Of a stretch of 64,000 nt of DNA, positions 17,980-23,675 are shown piece by piece (the stretch's first letter is position 1; every line of letters starts with the position of its first letter). A model generated the notes under the pieces. The model had not been told where the DNA came from. It ran no database searches and saw only the letters and a list, made by a program, of their open reading frames with translations. The stretch is from an uncultured Planctomyces sp. GTDB lineage: Bacteria > Planctomycetota > Planctomycetia > Planctomycetales > Planctomycetaceae. The translations under genes were made by a program, and so were the position numbers. The stretch spans positions 62,001 to 126,000 of the forward strand of contig CALGTK010000268.1 in NCBI GenBank assembly GCA_937904325.1. Reading direction: 5' to 3'.

Positions 17980-19653
17980 TCAGTCGCTCTTTTTATCACC
18001 GTCGTTCGGACGGCGACGTCTGCGACGTCGAGGTGGTCGCTGACCGTCTTCGCTCTTTCGCGAAGAACCTCCGCTACGGCTAGAACCTCCACGCGAAGAT
18101 CCACCACGTGCTTGACTAGCGCCTCGGATGTTTGCCTCAACAATGGACGACATGGCCTGTTCCCAGGTGGGTACGTCGTCCCAGTCGTTTTTTGCTCGCC
18201 GCGGACGGACTTCCGGCTCGTCCTCTTCTTCGTCAGCACCTTCCGCCTCGACATCTTCAGAATCATCGTCGCCGTCATCCTCTACTCTTGCGCGAGGCTT
18301 TCGGCGGCGACGGCGTTTGCGACGAGGTCGTGCTTCTTCTTCCGAATTATCGTCGTTGGCTGAAGCAACGTCGTCTTCAACTTCCGACTCGTCTTCAACT
18401 TCCGACTCATCTTCAACTTCCGACTCATCTTCAACTTCCGACTCATCTTCAACTTCTACGCGAGGCTTCCGACTTCGTCGTCGACGACGGCGGCGGCGGC
18501 GAGGTCGCTCTTCTTCGGCCTCTTCTTCGTCGTCAGACCCGGCGACAGCTTCGGCATCGTCTTCCGCTTCGTTTTCTTCGTCTGAGTCGATTTCCGCTCC
18601 AAAGTCATCAGCAGCCGGTTTCCGACGACGACGACGTTTCGGTCGTTCAGTTTCCTCTTCGCCAGAATTTTCTTCCGTATCGGACTCGAAACTGCCGACA
18701 TCTCCGGCTCCAGCACCAAATTCATCAGCAGCATCGCCCTCGTTGTTGCTGGAGTCTTCAACGGCATCATCATTAGCCGGTTTTCGGCGACGACGACGGC
18801 GGCGGCGGCGTTTCGGTTTTGCTTCTTCCTCTTCCTCGTCACGACTTGCCTCGACCGGAGCGACTTCAGCGACCTCTTCGTCTTCCGTTACGCCCGAATC
18901 AGCATCGTCTTCCTGGTCATACGCTTCGTGCTCAAAGAAGTTTTCTTCTTCATCGTCAAGAACGCCAACTCCAAACTCGAATGAATCATCATCCTGCGGT
19001 GGAGCCGGTTCTGATTTGCGCGGGGGCCGCCTTTTCTTCGGACGCTCCCCAGTTACTTGTTTCTTAGCGGCCGGCACAGACTCTTCGACACCGTCGTCCT
19101 CGTCGGCGGAATCAACTCGTTTCGCTCCTGAACTTGGATTCTTTTCTGAAGGTAAAGCCGATTCCGATGCTGGACGTGACGAGGTTTTCTTTCCGCTAGT
19201 ACCACCGACGTTCCAGTCGTCGAGCGGGTCCCAGAACGAATCGTCAGCGTCAGACTTCGGGACGCTTTTTCGAGCTGACCGCGGCTCGCGAGTTTCAGCT
19301 ACTGGCTCAGCCTGAGGGGACGACGCACGAACAGGTGCAGGCTCGGGCTCAGGCGCAACTTCTCCGTCGTCGTCCTCTTCAAAGATAATGTCAAATTCGT
19401 CGTCATCATCTTTTTCGAAGACGATATCAGCATCCTCGTCTCCAGCATCCGAATCGTCGGATTCTGCAACAGCCTCGGACTCGACCGACTCTTCTTCAAC
19501 GGGCTCTTCCGGCTCAGGATCCAGGGATGAAAGATCGATTACTTCGAACGGCTCGTCATCGGATTCATTTTTCCCAACGTCGATTCCAAAAAGGTCTTTC
19601 GCGAGACCTTCCCACGAGTCTGAATCGTTTGACGAATTTGAATTGGTAGTCAT
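17980..19653 (-). CDS. Low-complexity protein of alternating acidic and Arg/Lys blocks
   Basis: About 557 residues, almost entirely predicted disordered. Asp/Glu/Ser-rich stretches (DSDAGDEDADIVFEKDDDDE) alternate at least six times with basic blocks such as RRRRRRRRKP. A tandem hexapeptide ESEVED lies in the middle. The only ordered-looking piece is near the C-terminus: DWDDVPTWEQAMSSIVEANI, followed by a Gly/Ser/Arg segment and RPPRRRRRRRP. The start at 19653 gives MTTNSNSSND; a longer frame from 19689 is possible. Function unknown. Alternating charge blocks and Arg-rich tails are common in RNA-binding or condensate-forming proteins, so a nucleic-acid role is a guess. It is divergent from the TPR lipoprotein gene. 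Confidence 0.8.
   Translation of the reverse strand: MTTNSNSSNDSDSWEGLAKDLFGIDVGKNESDDEPFEVIDLSSLDPEPEEPVEEESVESEAVAESDDSDAGDEDADIVFEKDDDDEFDIIFEEDDDGEVAPEPEPAPVRASSPQAEPVAETREPRSARKSVPKSDADDSFWDPLDDWNVGGTSGKKTSSRPASESALPSEKNPSSGAKRVDSADEDDGVEESVPAAKKQVTGERPKKRRPPRKSEPAPPQDDDSFEFGVGVLDDEEENFFEHEAYDQEDDADSGVTEDEEVAEVAPVEASRDEEEEEAKPKRRRRRRRRRKPANDDAVEDSSNNEGDAADEFGAGAGDVGSFESDTEENSGEEETERPKRRRRRKPAADDFGAEIDSDEENEAEDDAEAVAGSDDEEEAEEERPRRRRRRRRRSRKPRVEVEDESEVEDESEVEDESEVEDESEVEDDVASANDDNSEEEARPRRKRRRRRKPRARVEDDGDDDSEDVEAEGADEEEDEPEVRPRRAKNDWDDVPTWEQAMSSIVEANIRGASQARGGSSRGGSSRSGGSSRKSEDGQRPPRRRRRRRPNDGDKKSD
18374..18455 (-). repeat. 18-bp tandem repeat inside the charged-protein gene
   Basis: Four full copies and a partial fifth of the unit TCTTCAACTTCCGACTCA (plus-strand reading; the first copy ends in G instead of A), encoding the ESEVED repeat on the minus strand. 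The unit keeps the reading frame, so copy number may vary between strains without breaking the gene. Confidence 0.92.
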
Positions 19654-19996
19654 GCGTAAATCATTCTCAAACACAAACAGGATTGGCATTCGGAGTTCTG
19701 CGAGAGCGGCCGCGTGGCCCGTGAACGCTGTTTGGCGTCAGGCTCCGGCACAGAAACCGTTAGATATTACTTGAAATCTGCCGTGTGGCAGCCTTTCAGG
19801 GAGTCGGAAAGAGCCGCGCAGTCTAGCGAGAAGGAACTTTCACCGCCATTTGGTCCTGGCGAAATCTATTTCGACCGAAATCCTGACGCCTCGTCGGAAT
19901 TCTTCCAGGATTGAATCCACATTGACACTTCTAGCCGGTCACAAATACAAACCTGCCTTCCAAATTTCACGATGCCAGGATTCCGGAGCGACAAGG
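19654..19996. other. Divergent promoter region, no gene recognised
   Basis: Separates the charged-protein gene (minus) from the TPR lipoprotein gene (plus). The plus-strand lipoprotein frame is open upstream from 19850, but that extension is not used because it would bury the signal peptide. Confidence 0.5.
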
Positions 19997-21313
19997 ATGT
20001 CCTCTCTCTTTTCGGCTCGAATGCTTCTGATTTTGTGTCTTTCCGTTGCTCTGGCCGGTTGCGGAGGCTCGGAAACCCCCGAATTGGACACCGCCAGAAC
20101 CGGAGCCGAGCAAACCGCTCCCGATGGAAAAGCCTCTGCAAAGCAGCAGGCCAGCAAGCTCGTCGAGCAGGCCATCGCTCAGATCAAAGATCAGAAGTTC
20201 GAGGATGCGGTCGCCAACCTGAACAAGGCTATCGAAACTGATCATCAGAACGCCGAAGCCAGCTTCCAGCGAGCAGGCATCCTCGCCGACGTCGGGCAGG
20301 ACCAGCTTGCTCTGAGCGATTATTCGCGAGCTGTCGAACTCAACCCGAACGACGTCCGCTTCCGAAACATGCGAGGCCTGTTCCTGCTGACTCGTAGTCA
20401 GCTCGACCAGGCATTGACCGACTTCACTGAAGCCGTCCGTATCGACCCGAAATACATCCAGGCCTGGAACAACCGAGGCCTGGTGAAACTTGCAAAGACC
20501 GACTTCCACGCCGCCATCGATGACTTTAACAAAGCCGTCGAAATTGACCCGACCTACGCCGACGGTTTCAACAACCGAGGCTTCGCGTGGTTCAAGATGG
20601 AGATTTACGACAAGGCTCTGGCCGATTTCGACAAGACGCTGGAACTGAAGCCGGGCTATGTCAACGCGCTGAACAACCGAGGAATGCTTCACCTTCGTCT
20701 CAAGCAGCATCGCGACGCCGTCGCTGACTTTTCCGAGGCGATCGCGAATGACGAGAACAATCCGAAGCACTACCAGAATCGCATGACCGCTTACACCGAG
20801 CTCGGCATGACCGACAACGCGCTGGCTGATCGAAGTCGCATTGAGTGGCTGCTCAAACTCGGCCAGATCAACAACATCGTTGCGCAGGCTCCGCAGAAAC
20901 CGGAAGGTTACATCCAACGAGCCAGCCATCTTGCCGAAGCCGGCAAGCACGAGATCGCTCTGGTCAATTTCGAACAGGCAATCAAGGTCGCTTCTGACAA
21001 GGCAACCCCGTGGACCAGCCGGGCAAATTACTGGCTGAAGCAAGGTGACTTCAGCAAAGCCATCGCCGACGCAACTAAAGCCATCGAAACAGAGTTCAGT
21101 CACCCGGCTCTTTCAATCCGCGGCGACGCTTACCTGCAGCAAGGCGACTTCGACAAAGCCATCGCAGACTTCACCGCCGCCAAACGTCTCGACTCTGGAG
21201 TTGCACAAGCTTACTACCAACGAGCATTGCAACGCCGACAAAAGGGTGATGAAGCAGGCTCTCGGGCGGACTACGAAGCGGCACTTCAGCTCGATCCGCA
21301 AGTTGGCCAATAG
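19997..21313 (+). CDS. TPR-repeat lipoprotein
   Basis: A 438-residue lipoprotein almost wholly made of TPRs. The start at 19997 has GGAG about 9 bases upstream and gives MSSLFSARMLLILCLSVALAGC, a good lipoprotein signal. From about residue 55, about eleven 34-residue repeats run to the C-terminus, with motifs such as AWNNRGLVKLAKTDFHAAID, FNNRGFAWFKMEIYDKALAD and ALNNRGMLHLRLKQHRDAV. These are TPR_1/TPR_2-type units with the NNRG variant. It probably scaffolds envelope protein complexes; the partner is unknown. A weak hairpin CATCTG/CAGATG follows at 21330-21346. Confidence 0.9.
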   Translation: MSSLFSARMLLILCLSVALAGCGGSETPELDTARTGAEQTAPDGKASAKQQASKLVEQAIAQIKDQKFEDAVANLNKAIETDHQNAEASFQRAGILADVGQDQLALSDYSRAVELNPNDVRFRNMRGLFLLTRSQLDQALTDFTEAVRIDPKYIQAWNNRGLVKLAKTDFHAAIDDFNKAVEIDPTYADGFNNRGFAWFKMEIYDKALADFDKTLELKPGYVNALNNRGMLHLRLKQHRDAVADFSEAIANDENNPKHYQNRMTAYTELGMTDNALADRSRIEWLLKLGQINNIVAQAPQKPEGYIQRASHLAEAGKHEIALVNFEQAIKVASDKATPWTSRANYWLKQGDFSKAIADATKAIETEFSHPALSIRGDAYLQQGDFDKAIADFTAAKRLDSGVAQAYYQRALQRRQKGDEAGSRADYEAALQLDPQVGQ

Positions 21314-21718
21314 CGTAGCGCTGACTGGCCATCTGATTTTCAGATGCTGACAGGTCAAAAATCTGGTCGAGCGTATCTCGACGCAATGCTTAGAGCGGCA
21401 GTGCGTCAATACACTCCCTGCAAGCCTCAACCGTTGCATTTGCTACGAAAATGCTGCACGCCAGTGACGTTCGACGACGCTGTTATCTGTTCGAAGCTCC
21501 CGCCAGGTAGAACACGCGTATCCACTCGCGATCTTTGACACCTGATGGCGTTGTTTATTCCTGAAGGTTTTGCATGATGGAACAATCATTTCCTATCAAT
21601 TCTGCGCAAACTATCTCACGCGCGCTGATGACTGCCCTGTATTTCCTCGTTACCCGGAACGTCGATCGTCAGATCCCGGGTGCGCCATTTCTCCCTATAT
21701 ATTCAGATGGGACGGGCT
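21314..21718. other. Intergenic stretch, no gene recognised
   Basis: About 400 bases between two plus-strand genes. Two short open frames (21344-21538 and 21574-21819) show no protein family pattern; the second overlaps the next gene in another frame. The promoter of the twin membrane-protein pair should lie here. Confidence 0.45.
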
Positions 21719-22648
21719 ATGACTTCAGAGACTACTTCTTCAGACGCCGGAGCAGCAGACGATGGCAGCGCCATCGACGCTCGAGTTCAAGCCGTGCAGG
21801 GACAGGTCGCCGCACTTGAATCCGCCCTGAGCGCATCACGTAAATCAAGACAGATCATCCTTGTCGGACTGGTCGCAGTCATCGCCGTTGTGGCGTACCT
21901 GTTTTATGGATTAGCAAATCAGCTTAAGTCCGAAGAATACATAACCAAGCTGAGCGAAGAAGCACAAACCTACGCCAACGACAACTCCGATAGCTATATG
22001 CGGGAAGTAAAGACGCTTACTGACAACGTCACGCCGGTTATCACCAAAGCGTTTTACGCGCAGGTAAAAAGAGACACTCCGAAGCTGACGCTCGCGATGA
22101 ACAAAGAACGCGAGCTTCTAATGAAGAATGTGCAGGCCCGCCTCGAGAAACAGATTAATGATCAGTACGCGAAGGTCCTGGCTGACTACGAGAAGATTCT
22201 GCTTACCGAATTTCCGAAAGCCGAAGACGACATGATTCGTCGCCGAGTCATGGCTAACTTCCGAGAAGCTATGAATCGCATGGTGAAAAAATTCTACGCC
22301 GACCAGTTCCAGACGGAACTGCAGGCCATGTATGACACCTGGGATGAATTCCCGGTCGCTGATGCCGTCGACGAAGGTGACGTCCCGATGGAAGACCAGC
22401 TCGTCGGGTACCTCCTCGAATTGACAACGCTCAAACTATCCGGCAAAGGTGGGTCGCTGCTCGCAGAACGGCAAACGTCGACATCCGCACCAACAGGCGA
22501 AGCAGCGAGTTCGACCGATGACACGACGACGACGGAACCGAAATCCGCAACAGAGGAAGCTCCTGTAGAAACCCCTGCCGAGAAAAAAGATGATGCCAGC
22601 CCGAGCCCAACGCCCGAGCCAGAAACGACGCCGAAGAAAACCGAATAA
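21719..22648 (+). CDS. Single-span membrane protein of unknown family (first of a pair)
   Basis: About 309 residues from ATG 21719 (upstream ATGs at 21680 and 21707 are possible). An N-terminal cytoplasmic segment with a short coiled-coil-like part (VQAVQGQVAALESALSASRK) is followed by one transmembrane helix (QIILVGLVAVIAVVAYLFYG). A long, mostly helical charged domain of about 190 residues follows (KALMNKERELL-like helices, ADYEKILLTEFPKAEDDMI, MNRMVKKFYADQFQTELQAM). The last 60 residues are a disordered Thr/Pro/Glu/Ala tail. The next gene has the same layout, 66 bases downstream, so the two probably make a complex. Function unknown. Confidence 0.78.
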   Translation: MTSETTSSDAGAADDGSAIDARVQAVQGQVAALESALSASRKSRQIILVGLVAVIAVVAYLFYGLANQLKSEEYITKLSEEAQTYANDNSDSYMREVKTLTDNVTPVITKAFYAQVKRDTPKLTLAMNKERELLMKNVQARLEKQINDQYAKVLADYEKILLTEFPKAEDDMIRRRVMANFREAMNRMVKKFYADQFQTELQAMYDTWDEFPVADAVDEGDVPMEDQLVGYLLELTTLKLSGKGGSLLAERQTSTSAPTGEAASSTDDTTTTEPKSATEEAPVETPAEKKDDASPSPTPEPETTPKKTE

Positions 22649-22714
22649 CCGCTGTTTCCTTCGTTCCGTTCTTACTCAATTTTTCGCATCATCATTCACT
22701 CAGGAGATTTCTCA

Positions 22715-23593
22715 ATGAGTTCCTCATCAAACGATTCCAAACTTCGGGCAGTCGAAAGAGAACTTTCAAAAATCAGTAGCAGCATGGCTCGTGGCGCCAA
22801 AATAACCGCCTTTATCGGCGTCATTTTGATGGCCGCGATGCTGGGCTATTTCACCTTCGGTTTCAGTGAAATCGAAGACCTGACTAAACCAGAAAACCTC
22901 GTCGCACTAGCCGGCCAAGTCGTCAACAGCAGCCTCCCTGAAATTCGCGAGTCCGTCCAGGAAACGGTCAACGATTCAGCTCCCGACTGGGCTCAGGCCA
23001 TCAGTGACCAGGCCATCGGAGCGACACCGACCATCCGCGAGTCACTCGAAGATCACATTCTCTCTCAAACGGAAGGTGTTATCTCGAACGGCGTAAACCT
23101 CGGTGAAGCCGAGTTCCGCAAGATCCTGCGTGAGAATAAGTCGGCGTTCGAGGACACTCTCGACGAGCTGGCTGAAGGCGAAGAGTTCTCCGAAGAAACG
23201 ATGCAGATCTTCCTCGAAGCCGTGAACAAGGAACTTGGGCGAGACATGGAAGATCAGGCTGAAGAAGTCCTCGGCACTCTGATTGCCCTCAACGAAAAAC
23301 TCCAGAAGCTCAGCTCGAACACTTCGTTGAACAAGGAAGAAGCCCTTGAACGACAAACTTTAATGGTCATCCGTCGGCTGCAGCTTCAGGAGCAGGACGC
23401 TCAAATCCTCGAAGCAAAGAAGAAGATCGCAGAAGCGGCCGCGGCAGCACGAGCTGAAGCCGCCAAAGCCGAACTGGAGTCAGAAGGTCCAGACGCCGCC
23501 CCTGCAGAAGGCGAAGAAGCAGAAAAGCCTGCTGATGAAAAACCGGCTGACGACGCACCAGCCGAAACGACCGAGGAAACTAAAGATGAATAA
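22715..23593 (+). CDS. Single-span membrane protein of unknown family (second of a pair)
   Basis: 292 residues. The start is supported by AGGAG about 10 bases upstream. Short N-terminal coiled coil (LRAVERELSKISSSMARG), one transmembrane helix (ITAFIGVILMAAMLGYFTFG), then a long helical domain with repeated amphipathic segments (IRESVQETVNDSAPDWAQAI, FRKILRENKSAFEDTLDEL, MQIFLEAVNKELGRDMEDQA). It ends in Ala/Glu-rich helix and a Pro/Ala/Asp/Glu tail (PADEKPADDAPAETTEETKD). Same topology as the preceding gene product although sequence similarity is low. A strong terminator closes this two-gene unit. Function unknown. Confidence 0.82.
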   Translation: MSSSSNDSKLRAVERELSKISSSMARGAKITAFIGVILMAAMLGYFTFGFSEIEDLTKPENLVALAGQVVNSSLPEIRESVQETVNDSAPDWAQAISDQAIGATPTIRESLEDHILSQTEGVISNGVNLGEAEFRKILRENKSAFEDTLDELAEGEEFSEETMQIFLEAVNKELGRDMEDQAEEVLGTLIALNEKLQKLSSNTSLNKEEALERQTLMVIRRLQLQEQDAQILEAKKKIAEAAAAARAEAAKAELESEGPDAAPAEGEEAEKPADEKPADDAPAETTEETKDE

Positions 23594-23639
23594 GACTGCA
23601 GGATGCGTCTCGACGGACCACTGACATTTCTGAATTAAG

Positions 23640-23675
23640 ACGGCGCGGACGATCTTTGTTCGCGTCGTTTTTTTC
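23640..23675 (+). terminator. Rho-independent terminator of the twin membrane-protein operon
   Basis: ACGGCGCGGAC at 23640-23650 pairs with GTTCGCGTCGT at 23658-23668 (11 bp with two G-U pairs) around a 7-base loop, followed by an uninterrupted T-run. It lies 46 bases past the stop and before the convergent Lhr gene. Confidence 0.88.

Follow-up and report, generated by a model that had tools for sequence, protein, structure and literature searches.

PilN and PilO, like GspL and GspM, are two type II bitopic membrane proteins of similar size, encoded by adjacent genes in pil or gsp operons, that combine a coiled coil with periplasmic ferredoxin-like alpha/beta domains. FtsL and FtsB, the products of near-universal division genes, form a small type II bitopic pair zipped together by a coiled coil that is periplasmic and short. 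Other described systems share single elements of such architectures, namely the Rz spanin, whose partner is an outer-membrane lipoprotein, and apolipoproteins A-I and E, which consist of proline-punctuated amphipathic helical repeats on an 11/22-residue lattice and have no transmembrane segment. PilN and PilO are known to form a heterodimer (cf. PMC5805733). The pair of genes described here, A and B, lies in the genome of an uncultured Planctomyces sp., within a stretch of 64,000 nucleotides that was analysed as a whole and is referred to as the window.

The locus and its two proteins

ORF A (21719..22648, plus strand, 309 aa) and ORF B (22715..23593, plus strand, 292 aa) are consecutive genes separated by 66 bases, and the initial annotation was correct in placing the pair at 21719-23593. 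The gap contains a Shine-Dalgarno sequence, AGGAG, rated good, at 22702-22706 ahead of ORF B, and the two genes share a frame in the arrangement A-TAA-B, with that TAA as the sole in-frame stop between them. Both have homologues, and in a congener (L012/G001) A and B are each 80-82% identical to the window copies. Comparison with the congener gives dN/dS values of 0.043 (A) and 0.059 (B) for the ectodomains and of 0.36 (A) and 0.10 (B) for the C-terminal tails, figures that are rough because synonymous sites are near saturation. ORFs A and B are real genes, constrained by purifying selection.

The same comparison delineates a conserved 5' leader of the pair (21577..21718, plus strand), which near the ATG is about 90-100% identical to that of the congener, whereas the DNA farther upstream is far more diverged, and which is non-coding, because it has indels relative to the congener. 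The leader is unique in the genome and contains the inverted repeat ACCCGG-N18-CCGGGT (21652-21681). It yielded neither an Rfam match nor a stable RNA fold, and an RNA element was rejected on these grounds; the leader is probably a promoter/operator, with the inverted repeat as a possible operator. An intrinsic terminator with a 16-pair stem and a T run lies 3' of B (23637..23671, plus strand) and is kept in the congener, consistent with the earlier reading of one strong terminator common to both genes. The upstream neighbour of the pair is a gene with TPR-repeat matches (19850-21313), and the downstream neighbour is a convergent helicase-like gene encoding 1600 aa. On the minus strand, at 17980-19689, the window also encodes a 569-aa protein in which acidic blocks alternate with arginine-rich ones, and which has no Pfam or NCBIfam match.

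Protein A has an N-terminal heptad arm (residues 19-40, 21773..21838), a coiled coil predicted from sequence and topology to be cytoplasmic, whose a/d hydrophobics are read as I19, V23, V26, V30, L33 and L37. A single transmembrane helix follows (residues 46-64, 21854..21910; Kyte-Doolittle peak 2.67), flanked by three K/R on its N side and by balanced charge on its C side, and then a helical ectodomain of 174 aa (residues 65-238, 21911..22432; prolines at 91, weak, 106, 121 and 166), and a disordered T/P/E-rich tail (residues 245-309, 22451..22645). Protein B, likewise read on the plus strand, has a heptad arm at residues 10-24 (22742..22786; a/d hydrophobics L10, V13, L17, I20 and M24), a single transmembrane helix at about residues 28-48 (22796..22858), placed by hydropathy and alignment, a helical ectodomain of 175 aa (residues 49-223, 22859..23383; prolines at 59, 75, 90 and 105), and a disordered acidic tail (residues 229-292, 23399..23590). 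In most homologues of A and B positive charge lies on the N side of the transmembrane helix, and the positive-inside rule predicts an N-in/C-out orientation for both. The window pair shows the features that define the family: adjoining genes on the same strand, A first, with one transmembrane helix each and an ectodomain of about 175 residues. The long tail of A is limited to the window's genus and is lineage-specific, the tail of B varies or is missing across relatives, and an acidic tail is no part of the family definition. Of the layout first proposed as common to the two proteins, the arm, the single transmembrane helix and the helical ectodomain therefore stand, but the acidic tail does not.

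Pairing, paralogy and matched length

Profile scans covered Planctomycetota, with samples of 170 genomes of the order and 362 genomes across the phylum. Within the order, A was found in 24 genomes and B in 25; all 24 genomes with A have B, and the one further B, in G015, is 18 bases away from the end of its contig. Across the phylum 25 genomes carry both, including one (G269) whose A was recognised only on close reading, while A without B was seen in two genomes (G264 and G429), both times at a contig end, and B without A in a single genome, G517, where A is neither adjoining nor elsewhere. This solitary B (L118:6471-7184) adjoins cstA and is sister to the B of G128, of another family. Two copies of B, in G071 (L076:9114-10460) and G318 (L114:5458-6200), are split over two frames by sequencing error or decay, and weak matches in G117, G112, G076, G088, G030 and similar cases (E 1e-4 to 1e-5) were dismissed as chance, being short stretches in long unrelated frames. 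Every complete pair in either sample consists of A then B, adjoining and on the same strand, and in many lineages the start and stop of the two genes overlap by a few bases. Side-by-side conservation across planctomycetes had been set beforehand as a check, and what was found is near-perfect co-occurrence in a fixed order: across Planctomycetota the two genes behave as one evolutionary unit, which is sparsely distributed.

The two proteins were initially described as having little sequence similarity, and their sequences are indeed diverged, but real homology underlies them. The first A profile already aligned with the first B profile (hhalign 96%), and each of them, used in a genome search, also retrieves genes of its partner (E 4e-7 and 6e-9). 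When each profile is built from 25 diverse members, the hhalign match rises to 99.2% (E 9.5e-20) over 229 columns that include the transmembrane helix and the ectodomain. A tree of 98 proteins has a single branch (support 99/88) that separates every A from every B and is present in 200/200 bootstrap trees, and this clean split indicates that one duplication predates the spread of the pair through the sampled phylum. Profile alignment and tree thus identify A and B as full-length distant paralogues from one ancient duplication. The A and B trees also mirror each other (r 0.94; 0/2000 permutations), as may arise from shared vertical descent alone.

From the end of the transmembrane helix to the conserved C-terminal helix, the ectodomains measure 174 residues in A and 175 in B, and in 37 of 46 pairs they lie within 4 residues of these lengths, at identities down to 10-25%. 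The largest departures affect both partners (A/B 241/243 in G244, 196/219 in G316 and G456), a co-variation that is based on about two independent lineages and is broken by G269 (187/173). In G244 (L116:5537-7602) both partners are some 67-70 residues longer and have extra amphipathic repeats, which could show how the rod-like ectodomain grows. The N-terminal arms of both partners are shortened together in the clade of G018, G039 and G499.

The most conserved positions of both proteins are prolines, in A P106 (100%), P166 (94-96%) and P121 (88%), with P91 weaker, and in B P75, P90 and P105 (81-88%), with P59 weaker. Their spacings are 15, 15 and 45 in A and 16, 15 and 15 in B, and pairwise profile alignment pairs A 106/121 with B 90/105. 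Hydrophobicity has a period of 93-97 degrees per residue (97 in B), which in both proteins exceeds the 95% limit obtained by permutation and is as expected for a 15/4 lattice. AlphaFold gave all-helical models of the fused A-B chain (pLDDT 40, from a 3-row alignment with relatives from the window and L012) and of the A monomer (pLDDT 43, from a 2-row alignment), which at this low confidence are uninformative. The ectodomain would be either a single helix with kinks or several short helices, capped by prolines and stacked on one another. The conserved columns are prolines and hydrophobics, not clustered catalytic polar residues; no catalytic signature is visible among them, which points to a structural role in the envelope, whether as scaffold, tether or ruler.

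Pairing in fixed order with overlapping starts, co-transcription, paralogy, mirrored trees, matched lengths and joint shortening of the N-terminal arms fit a hetero-oligomer. From these features we infer physical interaction: A and B probably form a two-part complex, much as the initial annotation had suggested. It is rather improbable that they are instead co-transcribed homo-oligomers that do not bind each other and are kept for dosage or partial redundancy. Paralogy and the solitary B of G517 would both be compatible with separate homo-oligomers, but these predict that loss of a single copy should be common across the phylum, where it was seen once, and the lengths and N-terminal arms of A and B change together.

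Family searches, neighbourhoods and distribution

Searches with the window proteins against Pfam and NCBIfam (E 1), PHROGs and PADLOC returned noise only, and no family among PDB sequences fits A or B. With 25 diverse members per side, Pfam and NCBIfam (E 0.003) gave only single-member matches, at E 0.0004-0.003, to unrelated families, and a literature search of partial coverage found no description of the pair. The impression that A and B belong to no known family has thus held for the window proteins and for 25 members per side, and by these profile comparisons the pair is an undescribed family that the searched releases of Pfam and NCBIfam do not contain.

By analogy with two similar-sized type II bitopic proteins encoded side by side on the same plan, A and B might be accessory parts of some larger machine in the envelope, either a pilus or secretion alignment complex (PilN/PilO, GspL/GspM) or a divisome-like assembly (FtsL/FtsB). 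This is about as improbable as separate homo-oligomers, since the pair is patchily distributed and matches to the PilN, PilO and FtsL families are lacking in Pfam and NCBIfam (25+25 members at E 0.003; window proteins at E 1); DivIC appeared only below threshold (5 members, best E 0.01) and was gone at E 0.003 with the 25+25 members. Pilus, secretion and division genes are absent next door as well: the 66 neighbours of 33 loci include no pil/gsp cluster and have no Pfam theme, the commonest family, ABC_tran, occurring in 4. An all-against-all comparison of neighbourhoods found no other family common across genera. Operon partners were rejected, as the upstream TPR gene is common only to the congener and the sole synteny lies inside genus g71, in which (L082, L083, L084, L087-L090) a gene of 586-674 aa and one of 158-183 aa are syntenic upstream of the pair.

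One weak resemblance recurred, to ApoA-I, at E 0.0007-0.0025 (best PDB match E 0.0007), with an apolipoprotein Pfam match (E 0.0018) in one member only. The regular prolines and the amphipathic periodicity of 93-97 degrees per residue would likewise suit 15-mers that rest on a lipid surface and so curve or tether membranes, in a role like that of apolipoprotein or Mic60, and Planctomycetota, with their unusual cell envelopes, are known for membrane invaginations. A forward ectodomain profile alone reaches E 0.011 against ApoA-I, however, and a reversed ectodomain profile used as a control scores E 0.0009 against an unrelated protein, so that E-values of the ApoA-I level are noise. ApoA-I kinship was rejected on this control. 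The proline spacing is 15, not 22, Mitofilin is absent among the Pfam matches listed, and a membrane-shaping role is distinctly doubtful.

Within the window's genus 2 of 6 genomes carry the pair, and in the order about 15% do, a sparse presence that marks it as an accessory trait. In a quick tree both the A and the B of G018 (family f1) fall beside those of G039 (f4) and G499 (f5), and different lineages of the pair occur in the two g73 genomes; together with the patchiness, these placements make it likely that lineages have exchanged the pair or have repeatedly lost it as a whole. The same three observations would also be expected of an accessory or defence module that spreads horizontally, but such a module is highly unlikely, as PADLOC gave no defence model (only Cmr4, at E 0.08, for B), neighbours include housekeeping genes such as gyrA, purH, nadA and cstA, and single-protein searches with B found no relative on viral contigs, phages or plasmids.

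A proposed complex and the described systems

The reading preferred here is that neither A nor B would function without the other, the two forming an inner-membrane hetero-oligomer. In the cytoplasm their arms would zip as a coiled coil, their transmembrane helices would run parallel to each other, and helical rods of equal length, each made of proline-punctuated 15-residue amphipathic repeats and the conserved C-terminal helix, would extend next to each other into the periplasm. Such a unit would be structural, not enzymatic, and would serve the envelope as scaffold, tether or ruler. Taken as one statement, an obligate hetero-oligomer that forms an inner-membrane scaffold with side-by-side periplasmic rods comes close to an even chance, and the scaffold role by itself is proposed somewhat more tentatively. 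A phylum-wide envelope device, in which paralogous, length-matched rods on a 15-residue lattice set or sense periplasmic distance as a ruler or tether, is an unlikely extension of this model; if true, it would be a device whose two partners were lengthened in step in some lineages.

Two isolated hypothetical proteins thereby become one testable evolutionary unit, an ancient duplicated pair, whose fixed length, proline lattice and obligate pairing make clear predictions for structure and knockouts. Partner genes, of which none is conserved, a catalytic motif, of which there is none, and the tails, which are least important, are unpromising places to look.

Among described systems, A and B are comparable in architecture to PilN/PilO or FtsL/FtsB, and by the tests run they are a member of neither. 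The Rz-like spanin family phrog_739 gave a weak match (E 0.024), and resembles A and B in having an N-terminal transmembrane helix and a long periplasmic helix, but A and B have no lysis cassette or phage genes, and the partner of each is a paralogue. With apolipoproteins A-I and E they have in common proline-punctuated amphipathic repeats, from which they differ in spacing, 15, and in possessing a transmembrane helix. FtsL/FtsB (DivIC) are likewise two type II bitopic proteins with coiled-coil arms, whereas A and B are patchy in distribution and their arm is predicted to be cytoplasmic. With PilN/PilO and GspL/GspM the likeness extends to adjacent genes, type II bitopic topology, similar size and a coiled coil, but A and B have no machine genes nearby, and their ectodomain is predicted to be all-helical, on a 15-residue proline lattice.
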